Positions 3,919 through 25,672 of a stretch of DNA of 47,379 nt are shown here, in pieces (the stretch's first letter is position 1; each line of letters opens with the position of its first letter). Location of the stretch: positions 1 to 47,379 of IMG/VR virus record IMGVR_UViG_3300017969_003378; one strand, 5' to 3'. This DNA comes from a virus. Position numbers and translations under genes: made by a program. The notes under the pieces were generated by a model. The model did not search any database, was not told the DNA's origin, and saw nothing but the letters and a program-made list of their open reading frames with translations.

Positions 3919-4997
3919 TTTTCTAAAACTTCCATTTTGGTTTTACGATAATTATAAGACCCACATATATTAAAACATTCTTGACATCGAGGTTTATTTC
4001 CACTCCAACCTTCGGGTAAGTAATTGATAAAATATTCTGAATTTAAAATTTGTTGTATTGATAATTTATTTAAATCATTAAACTCTTGTCCGTATATTGA
4101 TGTTACATTATTCCAATAATATTTAAAATCATTATCATAGATTCTAACACCATCAAAATAACAGCAAGGCCATAATTTAAAATCATGACTAATATATAAG
4201 TATCCTTGTTCAATACTTTTACAATTAATGATTGTCTTGTCAGCTACTCTTTGTTCTTTGTTAGAAACTTCAGCTAAACTACTTGGTTCTAATAAAAAAC
4301 CTGACTTTGTAACATAATGAACTACTGAATTAATCTTATTAGAGTACGCATCTGATTCTACAAATTGTTTTCCTCCATTAGGAAAACGATTGGTATGAAG
4401 AATTCTAAATTTTTTAAAATTCATTTCTTTTGATAATTTTTTAGCGGTATCTATCTGGTGCTCATTGTGTTTGAATACAATAAATTTCCAACTAGCATAA
4501 CCACCAGCATTAATGAAATTACGAGCATTATCCATAATTTTTTCATAACTAGTATTAATTCTATATAAACTGTTAGTATCTGACAAGCCATCTATACTAA
4601 ACTTTACTTCTAGTTTGTTATCATGCAATTGACTCAAAACACCAAGCTCTTTCCAAAAATCAACAGATTTGATTCCTCCATTGGTGTCAACAGTTATTTT
4701 TTTATAAAAGCTAACTGCATATTTTAAAATGTCTAGTATACTTGGACAAGCAATTGGGTCACCATATACTCCTCCTAATGTTAATTCAATATTGTTAGTT
4801 AAACTTCCTAACTCATCTGTAACTTTTTTAAAATTTTCATAGGTCATTGACCCTAGTGGTAATTCATTTCGAACAGTGCTAGTACCATACACATGGCGAC
4901 TGCATAATGGACATCCAGCATTGCAAAGAGAAGTTAATCCTATCTCAAGTCTTCTAATATCAGAAACAGATATGAATTTATTGGGGTTTTGTTGCAT
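3915..4997 (-). CDS. SPASM-type radical-SAM protein
   Basis: A 360-residue protein with a different architecture from the other five. The radical-SAM cluster motif is close to the N-terminus (CNAGCPLC; C25, C29, C32), LGGVYGDP replaces the usual GGEP, and the C-terminal third is cysteine-rich (an INCKSIE region, LWPCC, then CQECFNIC), typical of SPASM domains that bind auxiliary 4Fe-4S clusters. SPASM proteins often modify peptides or act as dehydrogenases; no precursor peptide with a clear leader/core layout is adjacent. The start overlaps the end of the small CxxC gene by 20 bases, so the pair is probably co-translated. The substrate is unknown. Confidence 0.85.
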   Translation of the reverse strand: MQQNPNKFISVSDIRRLEIGLTSLCNAGCPLCSRHVYGTSTVRNELPLGSMTYENFKKVTDELGSLTNNIELTLGGVYGDPIACPSILDILKYAVSFYKKITVDTNGGIKSVDFWKELGVLSQLHDNKLEVKFSIDGLSDTNSLYRINTSYEKIMDNARNFINAGGYASWKFIVFKHNEHQIDTAKKLSKEMNFKKFRILHTNRFPNGGKQFVESDAYSNKINSVVHYVTKSGFLLEPSSLAEVSNKEQRVADKTIINCKSIEQGYLYISHDFKLWPCCYFDGVRIYDNDFKYYWNNVTSIYGQEFNDLNKLSIQQILNSEYFINYLPEGWSGNKPRCQECFNICGSYNYRKTKMEVLEN

Positions 4998-5175
4998 ACA
5001 CTTTATCTACTTTCATTTTTCGGTAGTATGTACACACTTGAACCATAACTGGTTTATTATCACCATCGATCATTTGTTCATATAAAGGATCAGAATGTGC
5101 TGGTCTTCCGCAGTTAGCACAATAATCATTTGATTTAGTTATTGTTTGATTTAGATTTATTTCTGCTGACTTCAT
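4978..5175 (-). CDS. Small CxxC protein, degenerate zinc-ribbon-like
   Basis: A 65-residue protein with YCANCGRPAH at residues 18-27 and a second half-site VCTYYRK around 47-53, where the fourth cysteine of a zinc ribbon (CxxC...CxxC) would be tyrosine. The start has a good Shine-Dalgarno (AAGGAG). It is sandwiched between two radical-SAM genes, overlapping both. It may bind metal with three cysteines plus a histidine, act as a partner protein, or be a modified peptide substrate. The last is weak because it lacks a recognisable leader/core structure. Confidence 0.6.
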   Translation of the reverse strand: MKSAEINLNQTITKSNDYCANCGRPAHSDPLYEQMIDGDNKPVMVQVCTYYRKMKVDKVYATKPQ

Positions 5176-6353
5176 ATAAGAACTCCTTGAAATAATTTAT
5201 TCATTTCTGGAAAAACTGCATTAAATTTTTCATGCCGTACAATGTCAGTTCTTTCAATTTCTTTTAGTAATTTATTATAATGTTTTGGTTCTGCTTGTTG
5301 CATCATAAAATTAATTATTTGTGTAAAATCATAATCGTTGTGGTCAATGAGTTTATCCTTGATTTCAAGTTTTTGTGTGTATGGCAAACAAGTTATATTG
5401 TAATGTTTTGGTTCATGTAAACTGTTTAGGTACACACTGTAATCTATAGTTTTTGCCCAATCTAAAAACTCTGGCAAATAAAAAATATTAAACACATTAA
5501 CAGTATGACAGATACTTAAAGTCAGCTTATCAGATCTATGTTCTTTAAAGATTAACATGTTTTGTACCACGTCATTCCATTTAGCAGGGTGTCGTTGATA
5601 TTCAAAATGTTTACCAATGCCATCAATACTAAAATGTACATCAACAGATTTAAAATATGGCCAAATATTTTGTAAAGCATTCATTGGTAATTGTGTACCG
5701 TTTGTGTTGTAATGTAATGTAATTTTATGTGCTAGGTTTTGTTTTTTAATTTTTTCTAATAGATCAAAATGTTCTTGAATCATAAAAGGTTCACCGCCGG
5801 TAAAATCTAAATGTTCAATATGTGGAAGTATTTGTTCAATGTTTTCCCAAAACAATTTTGATTTTTCGGGCCAATCAAGTCTCTCGTATTCTTGTACAAT
5901 TCCATCTAACAAATCAAATCTTTTTCTTTCAGCTATCCACTTTGAGCTGTATTGTGGCGAGCATATTCTACATTTGAGATTACATATATTTCCTAATTTT
6001 AAATCAAGGTATTTTGGTTTACTTTCATCATTAAAAATAACTTTATCATTGATATGATGTTGGTACTTTTTATTATCTCTAATTCGTTTAGAATCTTTTC
6101 CTGATATTTCTTCCATCCAGCATCTATGGCATCCACGTGGCTGTGTCCCGGATAAAAAACGCTTTCTTACTTCGTTTAATTCATCACTGTTCCATATATC
6201 ATCTATGCTATCTTTTTGTATTAAATACTCTTGACCATTTGACTTTTTTAGTGTATCTTTATACATACAACATGGTTTAACAGTTCCATTGGGTTGCACT
6301 TCCAAGGCTGTCCATGGAAGTATACAAAAATTATTAGGAAATTTATTATTCAT
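5172..6353 (-). CDS. Twitch-domain radical-SAM protein
   Basis: A 393-residue protein from the chosen start at 6353, nine residues before the conserved opening FCILPWTALEV; a longer frame to 6401 would overlap the divergent gene deeply. The N-terminal twitch-like region has C10, CC at 28-29 and GCHRC (C75, C78). The core has CNLKCRIC (C124, C128, C131), FTGGEPFM for SAM binding, NTNGT, and FSIDGIG. It belongs to the same subfamily as the protein at 7161-8381 (both open FC-IPWT and have PCC/TCC). It is probably an auxiliary-cluster radical-SAM enzyme of unknown substrate. Its ATG shares two bases with the ATG of the opposite-strand SGNH gene. Confidence 0.85.
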   Translation of the reverse strand: MNNKFPNNFCILPWTALEVQPNGTVKPCCMYKDTLKKSNGQEYLIQKDSIDDIWNSDELNEVRKRFLSGTQPRGCHRCWMEEISGKDSKRIRDNKKYQHHINDKVIFNDESKPKYLDLKLGNICNLKCRICSPQYSSKWIAERKRFDLLDGIVQEYERLDWPEKSKLFWENIEQILPHIEHLDFTGGEPFMIQEHFDLLEKIKKQNLAHKITLHYNTNGTQLPMNALQNIWPYFKSVDVHFSIDGIGKHFEYQRHPAKWNDVVQNMLIFKEHRSDKLTLSICHTVNVFNIFYLPEFLDWAKTIDYSVYLNSLHEPKHYNITCLPYTQKLEIKDKLIDHNDYDFTQIINFMMQQAEPKHYNKLLKEIERTDIVRHEKFNAVFPEMNKLFQGVLI

Positions 6354-7092
6354 GTTTACTATCTCTTGTATCGGTTGTAGTTGGACCCAAGGTCTCGACA
6401 TACCTTATACTAATACTTATCCTTATATATTACATGAAGTATTAAACAATAGCAATACTAAAAATAAAATGATCAATGCTGGAAGAAGCGGATCTAGTTG
6501 GATTAATTATCCGCAAACACTACAGTATATACATAAGAAATACAATCCTGATGTTTATGTAATACAACACACAACACCTGATAGAGGAATGTTATTATTC
6601 TCAGCAAACAAAGAAAAATATCAGCAAATTACTAGAGATCATGATGTTTATGACAATTATATACAATTATGGGATAACACACAAAGCTACTATCATTTAA
6701 CTGTGGGCATGGCAGAACAGTTTTTACAGAATCCAAAATCTGCACTAGTAGATCATATGTTAAATGAAATACAAAGAAAAAGTTCGTTGTTGCCTGGAAA
6801 TATAATAGAACGTGTCAAGTATTGGTACGAACACGAAAGGCATCATCCATTGACTTTTGATAAATTTGAAGAAACAGTTGATTACTGTGATATGTATGTA
6901 AGAAGATTAGGAAAAAAGATTATTCATGTGTTTTGGTTAGATGATAGTTTTGTTGTTGATGTTCCGACCAATCAAATTATTGTGCAACGACAGTTAAAAG
7001 ACTTTGATAAACTTGTTGTTGATGATGGATATCATTTTGATATCAATGGAAATACGAAAGTTGCTGAACTAATAAAAACCTTAATATTTTAA
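6352..7092 (+). CDS. SGNH/GDSL-like hydrolase family protein
   Basis: A 246-residue protein from ATG 6352. It opens with ISCIGCSWTQ (G8, C9, S10), matching block I of SGNH hydrolases with the nucleophile serine, and ends with DDGYHFDINGNTKVAELI, matching the DxxH block where H228 would be the catalytic histidine. SGNH proteins are esterases, lipases or O-acetyl transferases/esterases acting on sugars. There is no signal peptide. It is the only plus-strand copy; three relatives lie on the minus strand at 10859-16075. The start codon overlaps that of the divergent radical-SAM gene, and a large inverted repeat straddles its stop codon. Confidence 0.65.
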   Translation: MFTISCIGCSWTQGLDIPYTNTYPYILHEVLNNSNTKNKMINAGRSGSSWINYPQTLQYIHKKYNPDVYVIQHTTPDRGMLLFSANKEKYQQITRDHDVYDNYIQLWDNTQSYYHLTVGMAEQFLQNPKSALVDHMLNEIQRKSSLLPGNIIERVKYWYEHERHHPLTFDKFEETVDYCDMYVRRLGKKIIHVFWLDDSFVVDVPTNQIIVQRQLKDFDKLVVDDGYHFDINGNTKVAELIKTLIF

Positions 7093-7160: not shown

Positions 7161-8381
7161 TTATTTTATAAAATCTGGTAGTTTATGTAGTTCTGGGAAT
7201 ATATCTCGCCAATTTTCTTTTCTAAGACTATCTAGGCGTTCTGTACTGCTTACCCATTCTTTTATTTTGTGTGTATAGTCTGCTTCGTCTAAAAATTTAA
7301 TAAGAGCATCATATCTTTTACTTTTATTTTTTGTATTTGTATCCATCCACTCTTGTGCTTTACGATATTTTTCTCTTAGGTCATCTTTCATTACTTCAGG
7401 TAGTATTTGTATTCTCAAATAGTTTGGAGTCAGTAATGGATTAATTAAACTGCCTTCATTTTGTATCCATCCACGCTTGTACCAATCAATATGAAAATCA
7501 GGAACATGAAAACTATTGAATACATCTAGACATGTTGCTAAAAAGAAATAAGCTCTAGGACAAATGTCAAACATTCTTTTTCTATTTGCTTCCACTTGTT
7601 CCCATGATTGTCCTTTACGTAAAAATTCGCCACGCTCGTGGCTGGCATCTAAACTAGCACCAATTTCAACATTTTCAAATTTATCCCATTCACGCATAAC
7701 GTCAACATCTTTATATGTCATTTGACTAAAGTTTGTATTATACTTTAATTTGACATGAAACATTTTCTTTTCCACAAGACGTTTTAGAATTCTATAATGT
7801 TCTTCCATGATAAGTGGTTCACCGCCTGCAAAGTATATTTCTTCCAAACCATCCATATATGGTTCAACTTTTTCCCAAAATGTTTTTTCATCTTTGTAAG
7901 GTCTAATAATTTTTGGCTGTTCTGGTTTACCCCAAACTGCTGAATGATCTTCATACCAACTAGATGACAAATCAGGGCCACATGTTCTGCATTTAAAATT
8001 ACAGATGTTTGAAAATCTAAAATCAATATAAGGCAAATTAACTTTGTCTACACTACCATCTTGTTTAGTTGATTCAACAACATCCCAGTGATTTGCTAGA
8101 TGCTTGTTTGCCCATTGTCTGGTGGTAGAAATATTGTTTCTTTCCATTTCCATACATCTAGTACATATTTTACTTGATTTGCCTGCTAGTAAATCTTTAC
8201 GTAACTGTTTTTGTTGATCACTGTTCCATGCTTGTTCTAACGTTGTTTCTTTGAGATTACCCATAGGCATGTTACTAGGACTCATACAGCAAGTTAATAT
8301 TCTTCCATCGGGCCACGTGTGTAAATGTGTCCATGGGATCATACAAAATGTTTTTGATTCAAGTGCTTGTTTTTTATTCAT
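7161..8381 (-). CDS. Twitch-domain radical-SAM protein
   Basis: A 406-residue protein from ATG 8381, twelve residues before the conserved FCMIPWTHLH opening. The twitch-like region has C13, CC at 31-32 and ICTRC (C73, C76). The core has CNFKCRTC (C127, C131, C134), FAGGEPLI and NTNFS. It ends with a helical, charged C-terminus (LHKLPDFIK). The start overlaps the stop of the glycosyltransferase-like gene upstream by 8 bases, so it is the last gene of the long minus-strand run on this side of the convergent gap. Radical-SAM chemistry is expected; the substrate is unknown. Confidence 0.85.
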   Translation of the reverse strand: MNKKQALESKTFCMIPWTHLHTWPDGRILTCCMSPSNMPMGNLKETTLEQAWNSDQQKQLRKDLLAGKSSKICTRCMEMERNNISTTRQWANKHLANHWDVVESTKQDGSVDKVNLPYIDFRFSNICNFKCRTCGPDLSSSWYEDHSAVWGKPEQPKIIRPYKDEKTFWEKVEPYMDGLEEIYFAGGEPLIMEEHYRILKRLVEKKMFHVKLKYNTNFSQMTYKDVDVMREWDKFENVEIGASLDASHERGEFLRKGQSWEQVEANRKRMFDICPRAYFFLATCLDVFNSFHVPDFHIDWYKRGWIQNEGSLINPLLTPNYLRIQILPEVMKDDLREKYRKAQEWMDTNTKNKSKRYDALIKFLDEADYTHKIKEWVSSTERLDSLRKENWRDIFPELHKLPDFIK

Positions 8382-9396
8382 TAATTTTATCAGTCCACTG
8401 TGGAACATTGATAGTTCTTGCAAGTGTTGAATTTTTATTTAATGCTAATGATATATCTGGTCTTTCATAAAACATCTCCCAATCTTCAACAGTCATATTC
8501 ATAAGAGTTTCTAAATCTTTTAGTAGTCCTATCCATCTTTCGTTATAAGATAAATTATCCCATTCGCTATAATTTAAACCTAGTTCTTCCTCAAACAATT
8601 CAAATCCTAATTCTTTGAGATATGTAATCATTCCCCTAGGACCATGTGGTAAGAAAACTTTATGATAGAAAAGTGGCTTCCATGTTTTTTCAGTAATAAA
8701 CAAACTAGTATCACTAACAATACTTTCATTGACTATTTCAAACCCTGCATAATGATATTGGCTTGGTAATACATCTTGGTTGTGTGCTTGATCAATTGAG
8801 TTATTATCAAAATCAATTAACATTTCTTTGCCTTTAAATATCATATCTTTATAAAAATTGCTTGGTAAAACTCCATATCTGTTTAGCCAAGATATGTAAC
8901 CAAACCGGTCTTGATTGCTAGAAATAAGCTGATTTACCATTTTTGCACGATGTGGTTTTGCCGCGGCATTTAAACAAATAAATCTTGATAATATATTATG
9001 ATGTAATTTTGGTTGTTTTATATTTTTGTTGTTAGCATATAGTTGTGTTCTTTTTAACAATGCTAACGGGTGTGAAATAGGTACAACAGGAGGGGTTGAA
9101 GCACCGACTCCTTTAAACCAATCATTAAGATTTTTTTCTAAGTTCACGTCTGACATAACAAGAAATATTTGTTCTTTTGGCCAATTCTTAATAACTTCGT
9201 GTATAGTTGTTAAAAAATAATCTTTCTGATTAAAATGTATTTCACCTTCTAGTGTTCTCATTAACACTATATTATACTTGTCTTTTTTATCTTGATTTTC
9301 GTTGATCCACTTTCCTGCTGATCTCACAAGGCCTTCAACAGTGCTTTTGTTATGATCCATGCTATCAAGATCAAATAATTTAATTTCCTTTTTCAT
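8374..9396 (-). CDS. Divergent glycosyltransferase-like protein (GT-B/fucosyltransferase-exostosin type), copy 1
   Basis: A 340-residue member of a five-copy family in this window. Two shared signatures are visible: CLNAAAKPHR (141-150), and IVNES (221-225) followed by FITEKTWKP (233-241) and LKELGFELF. The TEK segment followed by a hydrophobic run resembles the donor-binding end of GT10 fucosyltransferases and GT47 exostosin proteins, which bind a nucleotide sugar. This assignment is by motif resemblance only. It lies between the DUF1289 gene (17-base overlap) and a radical-SAM gene. Unlike the other copies it lacks the HPF segment (here KVFLPHG). Confidence 0.55.
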   Translation of the reverse strand: MKKEIKLFDLDSMDHNKSTVEGLVRSAGKWINENQDKKDKYNIVLMRTLEGEIHFNQKDYFLTTIHEVIKNWPKEQIFLVMSDVNLEKNLNDWFKGVGASTPPVVPISHPLALLKRTQLYANNKNIKQPKLHHNILSRFICLNAAAKPHRAKMVNQLISSNQDRFGYISWLNRYGVLPSNFYKDMIFKGKEMLIDFDNNSIDQAHNQDVLPSQYHYAGFEIVNESIVSDTSLFITEKTWKPLFYHKVFLPHGPRGMITYLKELGFELFEEELGLNYSEWDNLSYNERWIGLLKDLETLMNMTVEDWEMFYERPDISLALNKNSTLARTINVPQWTDKINE

Positions 9397-9568
9397 TGTT
9401 TTGTTCCTTGCTGTTATTTAACCTATTAATTATTTGCTGTGCTTGTTTATTAGTTAGTGTAGCCCAGCTTGTAATTTCTTCTATAGTTCTTCCACAACCT
9501 ATGCATACATTATTACTATCTAGTGTACATGTGTTATTACACGGGGATTTTACTGTATGTCTAGCCAT
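9380..9568 (-). CDS. DUF1289 family cysteine protein
   Basis: A 62-residue protein with the DUF1289 pattern: SPCNNTCTLD (C10, C14), VCIGCGRT (C22, C25), then EITSWATLTNKQAQQIINRL, matching the EIxxW...R.RL end of the family. The four cysteines probably bind zinc or an iron-sulphur centre. DUF1289 proteins are mainly proteobacterial and of unknown function, so a phage copy suggests acquisition from a host. It overlaps glycosyltransferase-like genes on both sides (19 bases upstream, 17 bases downstream) and shares the transcription unit with radical-SAM genes. Confidence 0.8.
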   Translation of the reverse strand: MARHTVKSPCNNTCTLDSNNVCIGCGRTIEEITSWATLTNKQAQQIINRLNNSKEQNNEKGN

Positions 9569-10869
9569 TCAAATAATTTATTAAAATATTCCTCTTTGTT
9601 TAAGTTAAGAAAATGATTTCGATTATGCAATAAACGATCAAATATTTTCCAATAATCTTTATGTACAACTTCAATTGGCCATGCACATGTTTGTTTAACT
9701 TGTTTTAATACGTTATCAATTCTATCTCTTGAGTTTTCCATGGCGTCATATGACTCATCAAAAAATCCATTAAATGTTTGATATCCTGTGTCTTTTAGAT
9801 ATTCTAATGTACCCCGAGAGCCTGCAACTAAAAAAGGATGTAATTGTAATATTGGTTGGTATACTTTTTCAGTAATAAACAGCGGGTCGTTTGGAAAGCT
9901 ATCACAGACAGTTTCATTAATTAAACTAAAGTAAGTATCATAGTAATGCTTGGCGTCCATTCTTCTTTGATTTAAATCTATATTAATAGAGTCTGCATCT
10001 TCATCTAAAACAATTGGTGTTTTTTCAAGAAATAGTTCCATGTCTGTTTTGATTTCATTTATATTTTCGTTGTTTGTAAAATCTCTAATATTATGAGGTA
10101 CTCCTGGTGTGAAGTATCTATTTAAAAAACTAGTATATCCGTGGTTGTTTAATCCGTGTTTATAAATTTGACTCATTATATAAATTCTATGAGGCCTTGG
10201 ATTAGCATTTCTACAAACAAATCTTTTTGGTCTTATTCTGTCTTTATCTAATAAATCTTCATGTACTAGTTCAGCCGAAACGTCAATTTCGGTCATTCTG
10301 TTTCTACTAAAATACATTCTATTAGTTTCTAGCCAGTAGTTTAATTCAAAAATGTTTAACCCAAATGTTTTTATTTTTGATTGTATATTTTTTAATTTGC
10401 AGTAGTCTTTGAAATTTTGTTCAATTCTTAAATCACCAAATACTAGATGAACTTTTTCTTCCGGAATATTTTTATCTGCTAAAGTATACATAATATCATC
10501 AATAAACCGTGGCATTGATAGATTGAAGCCTTCGCTCGGAAACCATAATAATATGTTTACGTTTTTATTAAACTTTATAGTATTTAATACATCCTCGTCA
10601 ATATAATGAAATACATTTTCATAAAAGAAACTTAAATCAATCCATTCTGGTTGAATATGATACCAAAACTTTTCTTTGTGATGTAATGCTTGATCTGGTT
10701 TGCATTTATTGTATGTTATTCCAGCATAATCTAACAATTCCTCAAGATATTGATATTTTACATTGCCGTAATTTTTAAAATGTTCTTTGTTACGTTTCCA
10801 AAAAGGTATACTGTTTGGTAATGCACCAAGTTCTTTGTCCCAGGTTTGATATATTAAATTAAGATGCAT
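9550..10869 (-). CDS. Divergent glycosyltransferase-like protein, copy 2
   Basis: A 439-residue protein, the longest of the five-copy family. The shared signatures are FVCRNANPRPHR (217-228), SLINET (315-320), FITEKVYQPI (331-340), HPFLVAGS and DESYD (371-375). The N-terminal half holds an alternating strand/helix region (NILLWFPSE, VHLVFGDL) consistent with one Rossmann-like domain of a GT-B fold. It should transfer a sugar in the cytoplasm, but donor and acceptor cannot be assigned. It starts within the end of the upstream SGNH gene (11-base overlap), forming an SGNH-then-GT pair. Confidence 0.55.
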   Translation of the reverse strand: MHLNLIYQTWDKELGALPNSIPFWKRNKEHFKNYGNVKYQYLEELLDYAGITYNKCKPDQALHHKEKFWYHIQPEWIDLSFFYENVFHYIDEDVLNTIKFNKNVNILLWFPSEGFNLSMPRFIDDIMYTLADKNIPEEKVHLVFGDLRIEQNFKDYCKLKNIQSKIKTFGLNIFELNYWLETNRMYFSRNRMTEIDVSAELVHEDLLDKDRIRPKRFVCRNANPRPHRIYIMSQIYKHGLNNHGYTSFLNRYFTPGVPHNIRDFTNNENINEIKTDMELFLEKTPIVLDEDADSINIDLNQRRMDAKHYYDTYFSLINETVCDSFPNDPLFITEKVYQPILQLHPFLVAGSRGTLEYLKDTGYQTFNGFFDESYDAMENSRDRIDNVLKQVKQTCAWPIEVVHKDYWKIFDRLLHNRNHFLNLNKEEYFNKLFEWLDIQ

Positions 10870-11605
10870 TGTTAATCCATTTTTTAACTAGTTGTTCTGC
10901 AAATGCTTGATGGCATTCTGTTGATGGATGTCCTACCATAGTTTTTTTACCATTTAGTATAGCCCAGCCTTGTGGTGGATTGTTTATGTGATCCTCGTGC
11001 AACGCACCTGTATATCCATTGTCAATACCCCATTCACTTAATCCTCCGGTTGCTCCATGGAACCAAACGTGATTCCAATCTATACTACTATACCAAAAAC
11101 TAAGTTCTTTATTTCTAAATATAATTTCTTTTCGTTCTGGACTTAATTCAGATTGCCAAAAAAATGTTTTATGAGTTACGTTTTGTTGATAACATTGTGT
11201 TTGGAAATTTCTTATAGCAGACAACGTTCTTAATATTTGATGTGTTTCGTTATAACAATACTTCATATAATTTGTAATAGGTTTAGAAATACGTGAGTCT
11301 ATATCTCTGGCCCATTCTATATCTCCTGTACTTTTTAACCAAGTATAATTTTCATTTTTTATAACAGCATCACTATCAAAATCTATAAGCTCATCGCTAA
11401 TCAATTCGTAACGATCAATACCTGATATTTGTAGTATAGCATAGTCAGGATTGTGTTCGTACACTGCACGTGATATATTCCTAATATTCATTTCATTGCC
11501 ACCGCCACCTTCTGCAACATTAATTAAGTCATACTGGTCTTTGAGATAGTTTGCCCAACTATCTGGGGCGTGTGTAAAACTACAACCTGATGTTACAATT
11601 TTCAT
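10859..11605 (-). CDS. SGNH/GDSL-like hydrolase family protein
   Basis: A 248-residue protein. Block I is TSGCSFTH (S9 nucleophile); EGGGGNEMNIRNI around 33-45 could supply the block II glycine and block III asparagine; GHPSTECHQAFAEQLV near the C-terminus (H226 or H232) resembles the catalytic His block. There is no signal peptide or membrane segment. Relatives are at 6352, 13410 and 15326. It overlaps the upstream GT-like gene by 4 bases and the downstream one by 11. Esterase or O-acyl transfer on a carbohydrate is the usual chemistry of the fold; here it is inferred. Confidence 0.65.
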   Translation of the reverse strand: MKIVTSGCSFTHAPDSWANYLKDQYDLINVAEGGGGNEMNIRNISRAVYEHNPDYAILQISGIDRYELISDELIDFDSDAVIKNENYTWLKSTGDIEWARDIDSRISKPITNYMKYCYNETHQILRTLSAIRNFQTQCYQQNVTHKTFFWQSELSPERKEIIFRNKELSFWYSSIDWNHVWFHGATGGLSEWGIDNGYTGALHEDHINNPPQGWAILNGKKTMVGHPSTECHQAFAEQLVKKWINNAS

Positions 11606-12525
11606 AATGCTTGATAAATTTCCTTTAATGTGTTTTGTGAATTCTTTATTAGTACTGCTTTATTATACTGTACAATGCTTTCAAAATCAACATAAGATTT
11701 CATTAATGCAGTTTGCAAAGAGTATATAATCATATCCAATCTACTTTCGTGATCAACCATGGTATCATAGGTTTCGTCTATTACATGACCAAATGTTTTA
11801 TAACCTCTTTGCTTTAAATTATCTAAGAAATACGGAGTACTTGCCACAATAAAAGGGTGGCAATTTGCAATAGCTCTATAGGTTTTTTCGGTTGGATGAA
11901 ATTCTTGATTGTGTTCAAAATGTGTTTCTGCAATTAAACTAAAATTGGTTTTTTGATACAATGATACGTCATATGGATATCCAAGATAATGATCACTATC
12001 TCTTTGTATATTATCTGGACTTTCTTCTATGTCAAACAGCGTACAAACACCATTATCATATAGGTTACTGCTAATTAGAGCGTCATACAGCGGCTTTCTA
12101 TTCATCTTGCCAGCTTTACCTCCTAAAAATAAAAACCGTGTAATACCGCTGTTAGTAACAGCAATATCACATTCTTTTCTTACAAATAATCTATGATATG
12201 CATCAAGTTCAAATTGATCTACAATAATATTTTTACCATGGTTAATAAACTTATTAAAACTACTTAAACTAAAAATTGTTATATCCTGTGTTGGAGATAA
12301 ACTGTTAAACTGTGTTACTAAATGTTCATCGTGTAAATATGGATGTTCTCTAACATAACTATAGATAATTGGTTTTTGAATATCTTTAAAAACTGGTTTG
12401 TTTTCACTAGATGCAATTTCTACATAGTCTGCTTGATTTAAATCATTAACATACTCAACATCAATAAATCTAGTTATTGATTCTAAACTATACCAATATT
12501 CTGGATGCCTATATATCTTTAACAT
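11602..12525 (-). CDS. Divergent glycosyltransferase-like protein, copy 3
   Basis: A 307-residue family member. Signatures: FLFLGGKAGKMNRKPL (131-146), GYPYDVSLYQ (182-191), SLIAETH (196-202), PTEKTYRAI (211-219), HPFIVAS and DETYD. It shares the GYPYDV-L motif only with the copy at 14152-15333, so those two are closest relatives. FLFLGGK followed by a basic residue resembles the phosphate-binding start of the C-terminal domain in exostosin-like GT-B enzymes. It is coupled to the next genes by short overlaps. Sugar donor and acceptor are unknown. Confidence 0.55.
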   Translation of the reverse strand: MLKIYRHPEYWYSLESITRFIDVEYVNDLNQADYVEIASSENKPVFKDIQKPIIYSYVREHPYLHDEHLVTQFNSLSPTQDITIFSLSSFNKFINHGKNIIVDQFELDAYHRLFVRKECDIAVTNSGITRFLFLGGKAGKMNRKPLYDALISSNLYDNGVCTLFDIEESPDNIQRDSDHYLGYPYDVSLYQKTNFSLIAETHFEHNQEFHPTEKTYRAIANCHPFIVASTPYFLDNLKQRGYKTFGHVIDETYDTMVDHESRLDMIIYSLQTALMKSYVDFESIVQYNKAVLIKNSQNTLKEIYQAL

Positions 12526-13423
12526 TTAATTCTTTTTTTATTTTTTCGAGATCAAGATTCATTGCAAGGTTTCTATTCCATGCTAGTTTATCAGTTACTG
12601 AATAAAATTGTTTTCTAATATCTTCAATATCTTTTTTACAAAACTTTTCAAGCTCTACTAGTGTATCGTTACTATAATCAAAAAATTCTTCGTATAATTT
12701 AAATCCTAATTCTGTCAAATGCTTATAATATTTTTCTTTATCTCCTACTCCGTAATATAAAAATAATTGATAGTTTAATATTGGTTTCCATGTTTTTTCA
12801 GTAAAGAAAACATGTTCATCTTCGTGTGTTTCATTGATAATATTTAGATAACTATTTTTATAAATCTCAACCGGAATTGATTTGTCATCATTGTTTAGTT
12901 CTTCTGCAGATTTATCTAAGTAATAATTTGTATAGTCTGTTTGTGTGTTATAACCATGATCATAATTACCTACCAGACTTACATAGTTATTTTTAATTAG
13001 ATTGTTTTGTTCACAAAACCTAACAAACTTAATTCTTTTGTGTTTAATTGCACCATTAAGACTACAAAAATGTTTTTTTCTAAAAAAGTAAAGTTTATCA
13101 AGACACACATTTTTTCTCTGTATATCTAAAAAATGATAAGGATAATATTTAATATTATTACAAAAAGGTAATACTTTTAAGTCAAGATTAGCACTTATAT
13201 ATGTTATTCTATCTTTGTCGTAGTCAGACAACAGTTGTTCAATTTTATGCATAACCGGAGTGCCATCTGACATTTCGGGGCCAGGATAATCAGCTTCATA
13301 CGGTTCATATATTATTATATCTTGATCTTCTTTTGATAATCCTGGTAGTGGATTATTACAAAATAATTCTGGTCTATTGTTGCTAGGTGTAGCATGATAA
13401 AAAGGGTAATTAAATATCTTCAT
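12509..13423 (-). CDS. Divergent glycosyltransferase-like protein, copy 4
   Basis: A 304-residue family member. Signatures: CSLNGAIKHKR (120-130), IINETHEDEH (195-204), FFTEKTWKPIL (206-216), LTELGFKLYEE. TEKTWKP is identical to the segment in copy 1 (8374-9396), suggesting those two form a pair distinct from copies 3 and 5. The HPF segment is replaced by QLFLYYG. It follows an SGNH gene with a 14-base overlap. Glycosyl transfer is inferred from motif resemblance only. Confidence 0.55.
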   Translation of the reverse strand: MKIFNYPFYHATPSNNRPELFCNNPLPGLSKEDQDIIIYEPYEADYPGPEMSDGTPVMHKIEQLLSDYDKDRITYISANLDLKVLPFCNNIKYYPYHFLDIQRKNVCLDKLYFFRKKHFCSLNGAIKHKRIKFVRFCEQNNLIKNNYVSLVGNYDHGYNTQTDYTNYYLDKSAEELNNDDKSIPVEIYKNSYLNIINETHEDEHVFFTEKTWKPILNYQLFLYYGVGDKEKYYKHLTELGFKLYEEFFDYSNDTLVELEKFCKKDIEDIRKQFYSVTDKLAWNRNLAMNLDLEKIKKELNVKDI

Positions 13424-14159
13424 CTTGTTTTATCCATGGTTCTATTATTGATATAGCAAATAAATATTGAAATTCTGTTGCAGGGTGCCCGCCCGGCATT
13501 TGATCATCACCTTTGTCTTGACACCATTCTTTTAACCCACCTTTGCCTTTAAAAGTCCACCACAATTCTTTATCAATTAGTGGTTCAAGATGTTTTGTCA
13601 TTTGGTAATCAGTATGAAACAAATCATGATCCCATGCTTTAAAGTTTAATAACTCAATGCCGCGATTAGCACAAAATTCTTGTACTAATAAAATAGATTC
13701 AAATGTTTTCATCATTTGATTTTCTCTAGTATGATAGTTTTTAATATATTCTTTTACTAGCTGGTTTACAATATCACTACTAGTGTTCCATGTGTCATAT
13801 CCACCACCTGGTTTAATAAAACTACCATGAGTACTACAATGCCATTCTCCTGTTAATATTTGATTTGTAAATCCAGCATGATCCTTCATTTTATTATAGA
13901 TATCCATATATAATGGATGTTCTTGATTGACATACAAACTGAATCTATTTGGATCACTCCAGCCAATAGCAACATGTGTTGCTTCAACTTTTTGTAAACC
14001 TGCAATAATATTTCTAGCAATTAGTTCGTTGTCGCTAGCCATTTCAGCAACGATATGTGTTTCTGCTATCCATTCTTTTATATGATTAGGCCAAGCAAGA
14101 TTTGTTTCTGTTAAATGTGCTGTAAAACTATCTCCGCCTGCTACTAAAATATTAGTCAT
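13410..14159 (-). CDS. SGNH/GDSL-like hydrolase family protein
   Basis: A 249-residue protein with the clearest GDS signature of the four: VAGGDSFTAH (D10, S11). SDNELIARNII supplies a possible block III asparagine, and GGHPATEFQYLFA (H225) gives the C-terminal histidine block. It lacks a signal peptide, so it acts in the cytoplasm or on the virion. It resembles the copy at 15326 (both have an HPLYxD segment in the middle). It overlaps glycosyltransferase-like genes on both sides by 8 and 14 bases. Confidence 0.7.
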   Translation of the reverse strand: MTNILVAGGDSFTAHLTETNLAWPNHIKEWIAETHIVAEMASDNELIARNIIAGLQKVEATHVAIGWSDPNRFSLYVNQEHPLYMDIYNKMKDHAGFTNQILTGEWHCSTHGSFIKPGGGYDTWNTSSDIVNQLVKEYIKNYHTRENQMMKTFESILLVQEFCANRGIELLNFKAWDHDLFHTDYQMTKHLEPLIDKELWWTFKGKGGLKEWCQDKGDDQMPGGHPATEFQYLFAISIIEPWIKQDEDI

Positions 14160-15333
14160 TTAACATAATATCCTTAATTGCTTTTCTTACTGTTCGTGCT
14201 CTGCTAAACAGTACTTTTTGATTGTTGTTTGCTATGTTTAATGCCTGTACCGACACACCTGTTTTACAGATATTTTCTACGGTATCTATTGCTTTTACCA
14301 TTCGTAATTCAGCATCTAATTCTTTATCATACGATTCATCAAACCATGGATTAAACGTCTGATATCCATAGTCACGTAACTGTCCAAGATAGTTAGGTGT
14401 TGATAGAACAACAAACGGATGGCCATTGCCAATTGCTTTAACTAACTTTTCACTTAAGAAAAATTGATTGTTACAACTTGAATGTCCTGAATGTGTTTCA
14501 CTAACTAAACTCATAAATGTTTGTTTGAATAAATTAACATCATAAGGATATCCGCTATGATGTTTCCCATAAAGACTATTGCTTTTGGTTTCATCAATGT
14601 TTTCCCAACTGTGCGGCCACCACCGCCAAAATCTTAACCAGTCGTGTTCATTAATAATATCTTTGACTAACTCATAGTACTTGTCAGCATTAAAAAGTCT
14701 TAAATCTTCTTGTGTTCTATATAAATTAATTAAACCGTGATCAATTAATTTTTTATTCCATAAATGCACTACATGACGTAATCTCATAAACTTATGAGGT
14801 TTTCCATTCATATCTAAAAAAGTTCTACTTGGGTTAGTTAATTGATGAGCTTGTACACAATCAATTTCTTTTTGTTCAACTCTGTGTACAAAATCTAATT
14901 CAAAGTATGGAACATTTACTGCTGACACATTTGCTTCGGTGATGTTTGTTAAATGGTCGCATGGATTACCATAAAAATAAAATATTTGATTTGGATTAAT
15001 ACCATGTTTTTTAACAGCTTCCAGTCCAATTTTGCTTTGCATTTGTACCCATGAATCGTGTTCAAATGGAAATTCTCTCATATAGCATATAGCAAGTTTA
15101 GCCTGACCTAACTTTAAATAAGGAAGCATATTTGCAGTTATATTGCCATCTGCTGTGTGTTCCCAAAAGTTTTGTACATTGGTGCCATATGTTGCTATTT
15201 CGTACCAAAACTTATCACCGCCGAGTGGTGGCTCGGTTAACAAATATTCAACATCATCTTTTAAAAAACGAGACACTGTTTCCATTGGCTCGTACTGCCC
15301 TACGTAAATTTTTTTAATTTTTATTTTACTCAT
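14152..15333 (-). CDS. Divergent glycosyltransferase-like protein, copy 5
   Basis: A 393-residue family member. Signatures: TFLDMNGKPHKFMR (171-184), GYPYDVNLFK (261-270), SLVSETHSGH (275-284), FFLSEKLVKAI (291-301; SEK instead of TEK), HPFVVLSTP, DESYD. The N-terminal ~150 residues form their own strand-rich domain, with AICYMREFPFE resembling YSYVREHPY of copy 3. It follows an SGNH gene with an 8-base overlap. Nucleotide-sugar glycosyl transfer is inferred from the GT10/GT47-like C-terminal pattern. Confidence 0.55.
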   Translation of the reverse strand: MSKIKIKKIYVGQYEPMETVSRFLKDDVEYLLTEPPLGGDKFWYEIATYGTNVQNFWEHTADGNITANMLPYLKLGQAKLAICYMREFPFEHDSWVQMQSKIGLEAVKKHGINPNQIFYFYGNPCDHLTNITEANVSAVNVPYFELDFVHRVEQKEIDCVQAHQLTNPSRTFLDMNGKPHKFMRLRHVVHLWNKKLIDHGLINLYRTQEDLRLFNADKYYELVKDIINEHDWLRFWRWWPHSWENIDETKSNSLYGKHHSGYPYDVNLFKQTFMSLVSETHSGHSSCNNQFFLSEKLVKAIGNGHPFVVLSTPNYLGQLRDYGYQTFNPWFDESYDKELDAELRMVKAIDTVENICKTGVSVQALNIANNNQKVLFSRARTVRKAIKDIMLND

Positions 15334-16075
15334 TTAGTAATCCAACTCTATCAATTGCTGGTATAATAATGTTTTCAGCATATTTGTTATGTTGATCTGG
15401 TGTTGGATGATATCCTTTATCCAAATCTTGTTGTAACAAATTGGTATTCTCAACACACCAATCTCCTAAGTTAGGTAACCAGTTGTTTAAATTAATTTTG
15501 TTATACAATGTTTTACTATATTTTTCTAATCTATAATTGTCTAATTCTTTTTTCCACCAAAACATTAGGTATTTGATATTTTTTGCTTCGCAGTAATACT
15601 GTACTCTTAATATATTTTCAAAAGTTTCAACTAGTGCTTGTTCGTGTGAATAAAAATATTTTGCATATGGTTTTACAAATTGATCATGAATTAAACTTGA
15701 AGATCCAGAATGTGCTATGTTGTTCCCTCCAGTTTTAATCCAAAAATTTTCATTTGCAACTGCTTCTGTTTCTGGTGCATGATAATCTCCTGCCCAGTCT
15801 GGCCAATGTCCTTGTGATGCTTTAAAATCATTATACAACGGATGACTATTATCTATGTAATAACTTTGTCTGTGTATACCAGACCATTGACAAATTAATG
15901 CAACGTTATTGTGTTTGTCAAGCTCGTGTATAACTGATCTTGCAATGTAACTATTACTAGCGGCACAGGAACCAACATTTATAGTTGCATTGTGTTTGTC
16001 TTTTATAGAACCCGCCCATGTAAATTCGTTGTTGTATGTAAAAGAACAACCACCTACTACTAACTTTTTCATCAT
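15326..16075 (-). CDS. SGNH/GDSL-like hydrolase family protein
   Basis: A 249-residue protein. Block I is VVGGCSFTYN (S11); GSCAASNSYIARSVI supplies the glycine/asparagine region; YHPTPDQHNKYAENII near the end (H223 or H229) is the histidine block. The alternative start one codon later (16072) is equally possible, since the frame begins MMKKL. It overlaps the upstream radical-SAM gene by 4 bases and the downstream GT-like gene by 8. It is one of four SGNH copies in the accessory block, probably a carbohydrate O-acyl esterase or transferase. Confidence 0.7.
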   Translation of the reverse strand: MMKKLVVGGCSFTYNNEFTWAGSIKDKHNATINVGSCAASNSYIARSVIHELDKHNNVALICQWSGIHRQSYYIDNSHPLYNDFKASQGHWPDWAGDYHAPETEAVANENFWIKTGGNNIAHSGSSSLIHDQFVKPYAKYFYSHEQALVETFENILRVQYYCEAKNIKYLMFWWKKELDNYRLEKYSKTLYNKINLNNWLPNLGDWCVENTNLLQQDLDKGYHPTPDQHNKYAENIIIPAIDRVGLLNE

Positions 16076-17592
16076 TCTTTATACTCGTTACTACCTGGGT
16101 TTGCACCTTGTGGTTTCAATACCCAACCTTCTTCTTTTGCTCTCTGTTCTAGCTCTTGTTTGTGTAATGAACCTTTTGTTGCATCACCATCATATAATTT
16201 AACTGCTTCTGTTTGAGTTTCAGGTATACCAACAAACCATTTTTGTAATTCTGCGTGTTTAAACGTTTCTAAAAAGTTTTTGTTTCTTCGTTGATCATAC
16301 TGTGAATAAAATGTTTTAAAATCTCTATGTCTCGATATTTCGCTTGATGTATATTCATGACCTGTCTTTACAACTCTTGTGTATTTGATTAATCTATTAA
16401 TCCCATCAATTTCCATATCGTGTATTAGTGGATTACTTTTATTTTTTTCTACCCATTGCTCTAGTGCATCTGCACGTTCATTTCTTATGTGTTCTGGTAA
16501 AGTAACAATGCTTTGAAAACTTGGAAATCTTAATATATTAAAACTCATTGTAGGAAAGTGTTTACCGTACTGTTCTTTGAGTTTAATCATTTCGTCCATA
16601 AACTCTGTCATTGAAAATAAAGCCACCGCCGGAATAGTCATCATCATATGAAACTCACGCACATTACCTTCTTGTAAAAACATATGAATATTCTTTAACC
16701 ATGTATTCCAATTCATACCATCTCTAATATACTCGGCATGTGGACCAAAACTCTCATTTGATGTATATAGATCAAACTGTTTAAAACTGTGAGTAGCATC
16801 AACTAATTTTTTCATTAGCTCTGGCTTTGCACCTAAATTTGAATTTACACTAAATCTAACATTACATTCTGGGTTGCCTTTCCACCAATCAATTAAACGC
16901 CAAAAATCTTGGCTCATTGTGGCTTCGCCGCCAGTAACTCTAAGTTCTTCTAGTGTGTCTTTGAGTTCCATATCCCACCATTTAAAAAAAGCATCTATGT
17001 ACGGATTGCCTTCATTTTTCTTTCCATACTTCATAGCCCACGAACCATCTTGTTGAAAAGCTCTTGCACCATCGCTTACTAGATTTTGATATGCACCATT
17101 CTTTTTAATATCATTTTGCCACTGTGTAGAGAAACTGGCATTGCAATAACTACAAGCAAAATTACAATTGGCATCAAAAGCAATTTCTAATGTTTTTAAT
17201 GGAACATCGTCTTTGTAGCCAAATTTAGTTTTAGCTAATTGTAATTCTTCCTCGGTGTATATAACACTTTTATAAGTTCTATCAGAAACATATTCTTTAC
17301 CTAGGTCTTCAACTTTCCAACAATACTCACACTCTTTAGGTCTTTCGCCATCTAACATTTGTTTACGCACCATTTTTTTATAACTGGTGTTGTGAATTGC
17401 TTTTGGATTAGCCAATACTTCTTCTACAGGTATTTTGTGTGCAGGTGGGTGATGACAACTTGCAGTTGATCCTGAGTTTAACCATATAGTGGCGTTGTAC
17501 CATTTAGCACCACAAAAACTTGGAGATATTTTATCTATAGTTCTATCGCGCCATTGCTGATAAGATTCGTTTTTCTTTTTGCTTATTCCCAT
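16072..17592 (-). CDS. Twitch-domain radical-SAM protein, SCHH subfamily
   Basis: A 506-residue protein, the longest radical-SAM member here. The N-terminal region has SPSFCGAKWY (C27), SCHHPP (C46) instead of the CC pair of the other subfamily, and ECEYC (C88, C91). The core has CNFACSYC (C143, C147, C150), VTGGEATM and SVNSN. After the core comes an extended C-terminus with a YDQRRNKNFLETF segment and a lysine/glutamate-rich tail. It is a close relative of the protein at 20520-21914. The radical reaction and substrate are unknown. Confidence 0.85.
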   Translation of the reverse strand: MGISKKKNESYQQWRDRTIDKISPSFCGAKWYNATIWLNSGSTASCHHPPAHKIPVEEVLANPKAIHNTSYKKMVRKQMLDGERPKECEYCWKVEDLGKEYVSDRTYKSVIYTEEELQLAKTKFGYKDDVPLKTLEIAFDANCNFACSYCNASFSTQWQNDIKKNGAYQNLVSDGARAFQQDGSWAMKYGKKNEGNPYIDAFFKWWDMELKDTLEELRVTGGEATMSQDFWRLIDWWKGNPECNVRFSVNSNLGAKPELMKKLVDATHSFKQFDLYTSNESFGPHAEYIRDGMNWNTWLKNIHMFLQEGNVREFHMMMTIPAVALFSMTEFMDEMIKLKEQYGKHFPTMSFNILRFPSFQSIVTLPEHIRNERADALEQWVEKNKSNPLIHDMEIDGINRLIKYTRVVKTGHEYTSSEISRHRDFKTFYSQYDQRRNKNFLETFKHAELQKWFVGIPETQTEAVKLYDGDATKGSLHKQELEQRAKEEGWVLKPQGANPGSNEYKE

Positions 17593-17809: not shown

Positions 17810-18667
17810 TTATGGTGCTGAATTCTTGTATGGGTGGCTGACGGGTAGACTGCTAGTAAGTCCCCACTTATGGGCCAAGTAGCCTTCTGCTTTTTCTAAC
17901 TCTGATATGTCAGTGCCGCCTGTGCCTGGAATGTTTGCCACAGCAAAGAACTCTGCTAGTTTGCCATCTAGTTCTTGTGATGATCTGTTTCTCATCAAAC
18001 GTAACTCTTGGTTTGTTGATATTGAGTTAGTATAATCATTTACTGGCGTAAATGCATTTGATCCATCTACCCTAACACCAATCTGATTGCCTGTCTTGTT
18101 AAAGAAACAAGCAACTACATGATACGTGTTTTGTGTTAAACTTTTTGAATTCCATAGTTGTAAGTTACCAATTGTGTTACTAGTTCTATTAGAACTCAAC
18201 CCATCCATATCTAATTCACCTGGCCAAGTGTTGTTACTGGCACCTGAACTTATAGCATAATCTCTTTTTGGTGATTGGTTTGTTTCATAACTCCACAAAC
18301 TATCCTGTGTGCTGTCTGTAACTTCAAATCTAAACACTCCAATAGCCCAGTGATTGCCACTTGATACTTGTGCTAGATAATTTGTACTTTGTAGATAGTC
18401 ACCATTGCCATCAAAGTCAAAAACATTCAAACCGTTTTGTGTACTGCTGTTAGTTATAGGATTACCACCCACTGTCATTGTGTATGTGCCTGCCTTATCG
18501 GTGACTGACAGTAATGATGTCCCACTTCTTGTGTAATTAGAACTGTCACTAGCATCTATCCAAGCAACTGCTGTTATGGATGTGCTTGGATCCCAACTGG
18601 AATCTGTGGTGCTGATCAATTTAGCACCGCCGCTTACAATTACTCCTTTTGCTGTAAGATTTACCAT
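17810..18667 (-). CDS. LamG/concanavalin-like lectin domain protein
   Basis: A 285-residue beta-rich protein. AVAWIDASDSSNYT near residue 33 and the C-terminal ELEKAEGYLAHKWGL followed by LPVSHPY are the opening and closing signatures of LamG-type jelly-roll domains in marine bacterial and phage surface proteins. The domain binds carbohydrate or protein. It contains serine/threonine/asparagine-rich loops and no signal peptide, as expected for a virion component. The start overlaps the protease stop by one base, which suggests the two are produced together, perhaps as an adhesin and its processing or host-surface protease. Confidence 0.75.
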   Translation of the reverse strand: MVNLTAKGVIVSGGAKLISTTDSSWDPSTSITAVAWIDASDSSNYTRSGTSLLSVTDKAGTYTMTVGGNPITNSSTQNGLNVFDFDGNGDYLQSTNYLAQVSSGNHWAIGVFRFEVTDSTQDSLWSYETNQSPKRDYAISSGASNNTWPGELDMDGLSSNRTSNTIGNLQLWNSKSLTQNTYHVVACFFNKTGNQIGVRVDGSNAFTPVNDYTNSISTNQELRLMRNRSSQELDGKLAEFFAVANIPGTGGTDISELEKAEGYLAHKWGLTSSLPVSHPYKNSAP

Positions 18668-20520
18668 TAGCTAAATTTTACTCCTCTTACTCTAATACTA
18701 CCAACTTTTACTTGCGATGAAGTATCATTAATAGTTAAACTAAAACTACGATCTTCGGTGGCAAAATCATTAGTAGCTCTAACTGTAAAATTATATGTTT
18801 TCCCACCGTGAGAAGGTGAAGGTGTTCCTGACAGTGTACCGTTGTTGTCAAAAGTAAAATTTGGTGGAATAGATCCACTATGAATTGAATGTGTAACTGT
18901 ATGTAATGATTCATTGGCCGCATTTGTAAATGCTGACGAAAGATCAAAACTAGCAGTATTGTTTTCATTTACACTACCTATTGATCCTGCGTTTGCTGTC
19001 CATGTTTTTGTGTAATCTTGATAAGGTTGATATGCTCTGTGTAAATTTGTTAATCCAGGAGAATTATACCAATCATTTATGTCATCTCGCTTGTTTGCTT
19101 GAAGAAAATTTTGTATAGATTGTTGATTTGCTGATGTTGTTACAGCACCAAAATTTGTTGAATTTGTATCTAAGTAACAAGCGGCCAATCCTGCCACCTG
19201 GGGTGCCGCCATTGATGTGCCACTTAATTTATTATAATAATAACCAGTTGATCCCAATTGCACTGCTGAGCCTTTGTTGATATATGAACTCATTATGCGA
19301 TATCCAGGAGCCCAAATTATATTTGGTGTTCCATAATTTGAAAAAGATGCTTTACTTTTAAAAGCAGTACAGGCCTGTACACTAATATCATATCTTGTTG
19401 ACGTTGCTGAATCTAACCAAGCATTTCCTGGCGATTTACCATTGTTAGTTGCTTGAAAATAAATTGTGTTTCCATAACTTCCATTTGGCGGAGCTCCGGA
19501 AATTCCAGATTTGGTGTTAGTAAGACCAAATGATTTCTCAAGGCTACTAATGTCGCGTTGATAAATTTTTTCATTAGTACCGTATCCCATATCATTGCCA
19601 GAATCAAAGAAATACCAATAACCGTCATTCCATCCAGATTCGGTTGTAGCATAAATTTGTTCGTTATCATTGCCTGCTGAACACACAACCACTATACCAG
19701 CATTAACCATATTTTTAACCAAAGTATCATATGTACTCGATCTTGTCATGTGCCATTCAGCATTATCTGAATCCCAATCACTTGTTGAGAAAAAATAATC
19801 TGGATGATTTGGAGGATAATAAGTTGAAACTCCCCAGCTCATATTAACTACAGTTGGTCTGTTGTTAGATTTTGCATTATGCCATGCAGTTATATAACCC
19901 ATTGAACTTGGACTATATCCATGTGTGTATCCACTAAGGTTAGTTGTAAAAGAATATATCTGTGCATCTCTGGCCCACCCTTGCGTCCTGCCAGCGGCAA
20001 TGCCGGCGCAGTGGGTTCCGTGACCATCTGGGTCAGTATAAAAACTTGAACCTTGAGAACCTCCCCAGTTGATTTGATTTATTCTTGATGTTGTATTTGA
20101 AGATAAATCATTAAACTCAGGATGCCCCACAACAATACCTGTATCCATAATTACTACATCAACATTTGCTCCTGTATGAGTGTAAGTGAATGTTGTTGAC
20201 AGTGTTGTACTGTCTTGAGTCATTGACGCAAGTCCCCAATTATGATACGATGAATTTACTGTTGTAGTTAAATTTGGATTTATAGTAGCTGAAGCATCAG
20301 CTTCGAATCGTATTTTGTTTTCATAATCTTCACTATTTGCACCTGCTACTTTTTCAGAGTTTAACCATTTGTCAAATTGATTTCTATCAATCATTTCAAC
20401 TCTAATTACGTCTGGGACAGTATCATCAATAATAGTAACACCGTCTGCTATTAATTCAGAAATTAATTGTTCTTTTGTAATAACGCTATTATTTGGTATT
20501 AGCAATGCTTTTATTGTCAT
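18667..20520 (-). CDS. Subtilisin-type (S8) serine protease with C-terminal Ig-like domain
   Basis: A 617-residue protein. An N-terminal ~75-residue region may be an I9-like pro-domain. The subtilase domain has the full triad: D126 in VVIMDTGIV, H167 in DGHGTHCAG, S436 in SGTSMAAPQVAG, with the oxyanion asparagine N284 in SAGND. The C-terminal ~115 residues include IPPNFTFDNNGTLSGTP, typical of putative-Ig (He_PIG) domains that bind extracellular partners. There is no signal peptide, so release would be by lysis or virion assembly. It sits between a lectin-like gene and a radical-SAM gene. Likely roles are processing of virion proteins or degrading host surface proteins; this is inference. 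Confidence 0.9.
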   Translation of the reverse strand: MTIKALLIPNNSVITKEQLISELIADGVTIIDDTVPDVIRVEMIDRNQFDKWLNSEKVAGANSEDYENKIRFEADASATINPNLTTTVNSSYHNWGLASMTQDSTTLSTTFTYTHTGANVDVVIMDTGIVVGHPEFNDLSSNTTSRINQINWGGSQGSSFYTDPDGHGTHCAGIAAGRTQGWARDAQIYSFTTNLSGYTHGYSPSSMGYITAWHNAKSNNRPTVVNMSWGVSTYYPPNHPDYFFSTSDWDSDNAEWHMTRSSTYDTLVKNMVNAGIVVVCSAGNDNEQIYATTESGWNDGYWYFFDSGNDMGYGTNEKIYQRDISSLEKSFGLTNTKSGISGAPPNGSYGNTIYFQATNNGKSPGNAWLDSATSTRYDISVQACTAFKSKASFSNYGTPNIIWAPGYRIMSSYINKGSAVQLGSTGYYYNKLSGTSMAAPQVAGLAACYLDTNSTNFGAVTTSANQQSIQNFLQANKRDDINDWYNSPGLTNLHRAYQPYQDYTKTWTANAGSIGSVNENNTASFDLSSAFTNAANESLHTVTHSIHSGSIPPNFTFDNNGTLSGTPSPSHGGKTYNFTVRATNDFATEDRSFSLTINDTSSQVKVGSIRVRGVKFS

Positions 20521-25671: not shown

Positions 25672-25672
25672 T

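Follow-up and report, generated by a model that had tools for sequence, protein, structure and literature searches.

Layout of the seven-gene run and its flanks

The subject of this analysis is a 47,379-nucleotide (47 kb) stretch of viral DNA (IMG/VR record IMGVR_UViG_3300017969_003378), called the window throughout, and within it a single run of seven genes (9550–16075, all on the minus strand) encoding SGNH hydrolase-like and GT-B glycosyltransferase-like (GT) proteins in the order SGNH-GT-SGNH-GT-GT-SGNH-GT. Along the minus strand, these are: (i) SGNH 1 (15326–16075; GCSFT motif, Ser11 and His223; assigned by its AlphaFold model, Foldseek and PF19547 (DUF6071), 2.2e-7), (ii) a GT of clade a (14152–15333; GYPYDV and SEK motifs; homology and tree), (iii) SGNH 2 (13410–14159; GDSFT; homology to SGNH 1 and tree), (iv) a GT of clade b (12509–13423; TEKTWKP; homology and tree), (v) a second GT of clade a, sister to the 14152 copy (11602–12525; homology, tree and synteny), (vi) SGNH 3 (10859–11605; GCSFT; homology and tree) and (vii) a GT of clade b, the copy kept most widely among relatives (9550–10869; AlphaFold and Foldseek). 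Genes are named below by their lower coordinate.

All junctions overlap: by 4 bases between the preceding radical S-adenosylmethionine (SAM) gene and the first SGNH gene (16072/16075), and then by 8 (15326/15333), 8 (14152/14159), 14 (13410/13423), 17 (12509/12525), 4 (11602/11605) and 11 bases (10859/10869). An earlier reading made from the sequence alone (the sequence-only reading) had given the coordinates, strand and order of these seven genes, together with overlaps of 4–17 bases, and it agrees with the listing of open reading frames (ORFs) and with the junction-by-junction measurement. Its seven genes stand, but its coordinates fall slightly short, as they leave out the fifth GT, both flanking radical SAM genes and a further SGNH gene, with which the island extends beyond the run. 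The radical SAM gene at the head of the block (16072–17592, minus strand; PF04055 2.1e-6, slightly below the cut-off, and phrog_14086 1.6e-6) is a paralogue of 20520–21914. The fifth GT (8374–9396, minus strand; TEKTWKP; homology and tree) belongs to the sister clade of 12509, and between it and GT 9550 lies a gene for a small DUF1289 protein (9380–9568, minus strand; PF06945 4.5e-17), which the sequence-only reading did not list. The other end of the block is occupied, at a conserved position, by a SPASM radical SAM gene (7161–8423, minus strand; PF13186 1.6e-11, PF04055 3.2e-8), followed by the fourth SGNH gene on the plus strand (6352–7092, with an alternative TTG start at 6289; SGNH hidden Markov model (HMM) 5.6e-40), whose position is conserved in relatives, and by the next conserved neighbour, another radical SAM gene (5172–6401, minus strand; phrog_14086 2.6e-20).

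Between 45.6 kb and 7.2 kb nearly all genes lie on the minus strand, beginning with baseplate, large virion and fibre genes (fibre ORFs at 27002–28303, 29068–30414 and 30429–35018) and continuing into the GT and radical SAM genes, so that tail-fibre and baseplate genes lie upstream of the block on the same strand. In a related lineage (L016, L017, L023 and L097) the genes next to the block encode the baseplate wedge protein and the head protease. The wedge protein of the window is about 40% identical to its counterparts in the PA5oct group and in Salicola phage SCTP-2, and contigs carrying relatives of the block reach 242 kb and 328 kb; these two findings make a fragment of a marine jumbo myophage the most likely identity of the window.

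Two protein families and the history of their copies

The GT copies are homologous (E-values of 4e-26 for 11602 and 14152, 2e-20 for 9550 and 8374, 1e-13 for 9550 and 14152, and 1e-11 for 9550 and 12509). The AlphaFold model of GT 9550 (predicted local distance difference test score (pLDDT) of 94.6) has a GT-B fold with two Rossmann-like domains, and its best Foldseek matches in the PDB include SdgB (1.6e-5) and TarM (1.4e-4), as well as trehalose-6-phosphate synthase and SenB. The nearest viral models (BFVD) are uncharacterised phage proteins and one fusion with a UDP-glucose/GDP-mannose dehydrogenase. Such a fusion is found in GT-family members of two viral relatives (L044 and L056), which would indirectly point to a role of the family in nucleotide-sugar transfer. 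Phage GT-B enzymes such as T4 BGT glycosylate modified DNA bases, and the BFVD fold matches include a distant one to a DNA beta-glucosyltransferase (1.1e-4). That the GTs of the window likewise glycosylate modified bases of the phage DNA is nevertheless very improbable: the fold matches are stronger to protein- and teichoate-modifying GTs, no base-modifying enzyme was recognised in the window, the genes stand in a tail-fibre neighbourhood, and SGNH enzymes are not known to take part in DNA hypermodification.

Within the GT family, R228, E319, E334, K335 and G362 are invariant or nearly so, and the C-terminal motif (N-E-T..TEK..PF) follows the residue order of the GT10 invariants of eleven PF00852 proteins. 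A profile alignment of the family with these eleven proteins (hhalign) placed the motifs in register with a statistically weak P of 0.006 (0.0064), while among the controls eleven PF00534 (GT4) proteins gave P of 0.055 with an irrelevant stretch aligned, and the SGNH profile gave 0.21. The motif would thus be a hint, a pointer to GT10 that stops short of membership. No match to PF00852 was obtained for 78 GT-family members at an E-value of 0.01, nor in the records G001, G002 and G007 at 0.1; no Pfam or PHROGs model recognises the GTs of the window, and PDB searches by sequence with the GT and SGNH profiles gave nothing relevant.

The SGNH copies are likewise homologous (8e-22 for 13410 and 15326, 1e-13 for 10859 and 15326). 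The model of SGNH 15326 (pLDDT of 91.5) has an SGNH fold, with Foldseek matches to TesA (4.7e-4) and the O-acetyltransferase PatB (8.2e-4), and PF19547 matches 9 of 47 members of the family. Block I Ser11 and the C-terminal (block V) His223 are invariant; the block III Asn (GxND) is not present, and all window copies have W/I/H-S/T-x-x-x-R at that place, the block being placed by eye. Every GT and SGNH copy of the window retains the catalytic residues of its family. The assignment of both families by the sequence-only reading was therefore upheld by the modelled GT-B and SGNH folds. No signal peptide was seen in the SGNH proteins, and the highest 19-residue Kyte-Doolittle mean among the window GTs and SGNHs is about 1.0; as there is no strongly hydrophobic N-terminus or segment, both are probably soluble. 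Tandem runs of two to three SGNH-family genes, mostly without GT neighbours, occur in several other virus contigs (L108–L126).

Each window copy falls into its own strongly supported clade together with orthologues from L004, L005, L011, L012 and L013; in most cases orthologues from L016 and L017 join the clade. The content of the block, and largely its order, is kept in the same five relatives (12509 and 13410 are swapped in L013), and the arrangement recurs in five or more further contigs of uncultured marine viruses. Since each copy has its own orthologous clade and the block is kept in the same phages, the copies are, by this phylogeny, ancient paralogues which diversified before these phages split and were inherited together. 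Independent acquisition, under which the nearest relatives of the copies would lie in different organisms, is contradicted by the same set of phages appearing for all of them. A common origin of the five GT clades inside this phage lineage was neither demonstrated nor rejected (p 0.31 in the approximately unbiased (AU) test).

The sequence-only reading had proposed more than this, namely that a two-gene SGNH-GT module was copied as a whole, perhaps so that every pair would attach and edit a sugar of its own. That the copies are old, diversified paralogues stands, but the pair as the unit of duplication is improbable. In its favour, the SGNH-GT junctions overlap, and two GTs that each adjoin an SGNH gene, 14152 and 11602, are sisters in the careful tree (support 100/99). 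The two motif pairs noticed in the sequence-only reading fit this tree: counted by coordinate from 8374, the "copies 3 and 5" sharing GYPYDV are 11602 and 14152, and the "copies 1 and 4" sharing TEKTWKP are 8374 and 12509, which are also sisters (96/88). The latter GT pair, however, has no matching SGNH pair, 8374 being without an SGNH partner. Furthermore, the order in the L016 lineage is SGNH-GT-GT-SGNH-SGNH-GT-GT (with a kinase gene before the third SGNH gene in L016 and L017), 11602 being missing there while its neighbour 10859 is kept, and a tree constrained to unite 14152 and 9550 is worse by 34.8 log-likelihood units (p-AU 0.08). Of the proposed comparison of GT and SGNH trees, the GT pairing thus disagrees with the module, as does gene order, whereas the AU tests reject none of the SGNH pairings (13410 with 10859, p 0.29; 15326 with 10859, p 0.46); the module is therefore unproven rather than disproved.

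Identities were compared between the window and its five nearest relatives. Mean identity is 77–87% for the radical SAM proteins at both block ends and at 20520, and 70% for 5172, whereas it is 51–74% for the GT and SGNH proteins, with the nearest relative changing gene by gene; L013, for instance, is 76% identical to the window in SGNH 10859 and 45% in GT 12509. The baseplate wedge protein is intermediate (62–82% identity to the window). The 12509 orthologue of L013 grouped with the L016 lineage in a quick tree, and the careful tree gives it no resolved placement. It looks as if these genes diversify and exchange alleles in the manner of surface-glycan loci.

Distribution and gene neighbourhood

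The viral scan gave 155 relatives, 80 of which were kept. In the fetched loci, first-round HMMs made from the window copies alone detected 237 ORFs of the GT family and 127 of the SGNH family, and HMMs run on these loci yielded 163 unique GT and 134 unique SGNH proteins. The GT family occurs on more than 150 virus contigs; among 399 Pseudomonadota genomes its profile found one case, on a 12 kb contig, and a pattern scan of cellular genomes found none. The GT and SGNH profiles matched nine of nine virus records, and had no match in the six cultured phages PA5oct, SCTP-2, Phosso, HTVC008M, P-SSM2 and S-SSM7. A DNA search and tblastn of 50,697 phage records gave no match, so that no annotation could be taken from cultured relatives. 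Two contigs (L044 and L076, records G007 and G008) carry eight to ten GT copies each, including single proteins with two tandem GT matches, and L044 also encodes a GT fused to a nucleotide-sugar dehydrogenase. As a clue to the host, RpiB was uninformative, as its relatives are spread over many phyla with none close.

A same-strand SGNH gene adjoins 61 of the 138 distinct GT genes with visible neighbours, and 56 of 67 such junctions overlap. In the loci fetched by the GT scan, 53 GT-SGNH adjacencies were observed against 34.7 +/- 4.6 after shuffling, and 27 against 16.5 +/- 3.1 when multi-GT loci were excluded. The association of GT and SGNH genes is real beyond this locus and holds in unrelated phages.

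Outside the closest relatives, the 111 non-redundant proteins encoded beside GT genes include 25 radical SAM proteins, 16 proteins with SPASM (Pfam scan), epimerases, DegT aminotransferases and one carbamoyltransferase, and radical SAM is the commonest neighbour type of the GT family in other phages. The window itself has six radical SAM ORFs (2725–3918 on the plus strand; 3915–4997, 5172–6401, 7161–8423, 16072–17592 and 20520–21914 on the minus strand), several with SPASM and clearly paralogous (38% identity between 16072 and 20520; 2e-48 between 5172 and 7161). This abundance, together with the sugar and amino-acid metabolite clusters carried by jumbo cyanophages (PMC7824862), would suit a radical SAM/SPASM, GT and SGNH pathway for a small molecule or glycosylated peptide acting during infection. 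We regard such a pathway as quite unlikely, as the conserved linkage is to structural genes and no precursor peptide was noticed, although no search was aimed at one.

Other genes vary in their position. The RpiB/LacAB sugar-phosphate isomerase gene (21911–22369, minus strand; PF02502 8.9e-44) lies outside the block in the window, whereas in L004, L005, L011 and L012 it is found inside, between the 9550 and 8374 orthologues; similarly, a kinase gene that stands apart from the block in the window has its homologue inside it in L016 and L017. Consecutive genes at 458–1882 (minus strand) encode a short-chain dehydrogenase/reductase-like, a cytidylyltransferase-like and an adenosine phosphosulfate (APS)-kinase-like protein, the last a small-molecule kinase (1451–1882; PF01583 7.3e-7), and possibly provide a nucleotide-activation step for the island. 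Between two radical SAM genes, the region 17810–20520 (minus strand) carries a subtilisin-like protease gene (PF00082 2.2e-27) and a second ORF without a Pfam match. Among the relatives examined, this pair is found at the same place only in L013 and L090; since the others hold different genes there, the region looks like a variable cargo slot. Upstream of the block, 22366–25737 (minus strand) contains more transferase-like ORFs (22366, 23943 and 24787) without a Pfam identity, and a 22366 homologue forms part of a 528 amino acid protein in L006.

Proposed function and relation to known systems

Within the tail-fibre and host-recognition region of what would be an uncultured marine jumbo myophage, the block and its flanks probably form a variable island for the assembly and tailoring of glycans. 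GT paralogues and sugar enzymes lie together in a hypervariable region beside tail genes, the combination by which host-recognition/polysaccharide islands are recognised (PMC7029224, PMC7824862). As to the donor and acceptor sugars, the acyl chemistry, the target and the benefit to the phage, we infer the following scheme. Each of the five GT-B transferases, cytosolic and belonging to an undescribed, GT10-like phage family, would move one nucleotide-activated sugar; three to four cytosolic SGNH enzymes, encoded in the same overlapping genes, would remove or transfer acyl (e.g. O-acetyl) groups on these sugars; and the radical SAM/SPASM enzymes, RpiB and the kinase would provide or modify the sugar or its acceptor. 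A variable oligosaccharide would result, which may serve escape from or mimicry of host defences, tuning of the receptor, or blocking of rival phages.

SdgB glycosylates proteins in the cytosol. This fold likeness to protein-modifying GTs, the proximity of fibre and baseplate genes and the predicted solubility of the enzymes favour the virion's own tail-fibre or baseplate proteins as the acceptor, which we name as the leading, though tentative, candidate. A narrower proposal, a dedicated and fast-diversifying island for the post-translational modification of tail fibres, in which a new phage-centred GT10-like family, partner SGNH acyl enzymes and SPASM radical SAM enzymes build strain-specific modified glycans, with alleles exchanged between phages one gene at a time like those of O-antigen loci, is rather speculative. 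Next in likelihood as the acceptor comes a glycan of the host surface, and it is conceivable that the infected cell has its capsule or lipopolysaccharide (LPS) O-chain altered, whereby superinfection by rival phages is blocked. The literature on marine and jumbo phages speaks for such a change of the host O-chain, as it was proposed for the GTs of the pelagimyophage host recognition cluster, which has radical SAM cassettes (PMC7029224), and also for clusters of paralogous GTs in jumbo phages (PMC7824862); relatives of the window also have nucleotide-sugar enzymes among neighbouring genes. However, the enzymes appear soluble, neither a transporter nor a membrane step was noticed among the genes of the block, and the apparent late structural gene region favours action on virion parts.

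Several points weigh against the glycan island as read here. None of the 78 GT-family members matched a Pfam GT model, the link to GT10 is statistically weak, and the target, be it virion, host surface or other, is assigned solely by gene position. SPASM radical SAM enzymes frequently have peptide substrates, and this would fit a chemistry of proteins better than one of glycans. Among the genes of the block neither a flippase nor a polymerase or ligase was noticed, so that a complete surface polysaccharide pathway is not in evidence. Finally, part of the GT and SGNH divergence is general, since the wedge protein also varies among the same relatives.

The interest of the proposed glycan island lies in a GT family without a Pfam or PHROG model, which is nearly virus-only, reaches up to ten copies per contig and is tied to SGNH and radical SAM genes beside fibres. 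With it, direct tests become possible of whether large phages of the sea put a sugar coat on their own fibres or on their hosts, and either answer bears on the mutual recognition and evasion of phages and bacteria in the ocean.

At the level of single proteins, the window GTs resemble CAZy GT10 (fucosyltransferases, PF00852) in the residue order R...G...E-N/T...TEK...P and in the GT-B fold, and the GT10 member mango FUT13 (7yro) is a weak fold match to the window model; they differ in a longer N-terminal half, in the lack of a PF00852 match and in the low profile-profile significance given above. The cytosolic GT-B enzymes SdgB and TarM, among the best PDB fold matches, are 8–12% identical over the alignment, with template modelling (TM) scores of 0.3–0.4, and a TEK-type motif is not established in them. 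The window SGNHs resemble TesA, PatB and DUF6071 in fold, block I Ser and C-terminal His, but have W-S-x-x-x-R for the block III Asn, and no signal peptide was seen.

At the level of the island, there is a close likeness to the host recognition cluster of pelagimyophages (T4-like marine myophages), a hypervariable tail-fibre island with several GTs, radical SAM cassettes and LPS-type sugar enzymes. According to the excerpted text of PMC7029224, GT8 is the most represented GT family there, and that text does not describe GT-B genes of a GT10-like family alternating with SGNH genes; the pelagiphage HTVC008M, as mentioned, has neither window family. The capsular polysaccharide modification clusters of jumbo phages likewise combine paralogous GTs with epimerases, isomerases, kinases and HIGH nucleotidyltransferases, but SGNH or radical SAM proteins are not mentioned (PMC7824862), and both window families are missing from P-SSM2, S-SSM7, PA5oct, SCTP-2 and Phosso. 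In the literature searched, no description was found of the GT family, of the way it is coupled to SGNH genes or of a deeply conserved block like this one; the setting in which they occur, a phage island with paralogous GTs, sugar enzymes and radical SAM cassettes, is already known (PMC7029224, PMC7824862).

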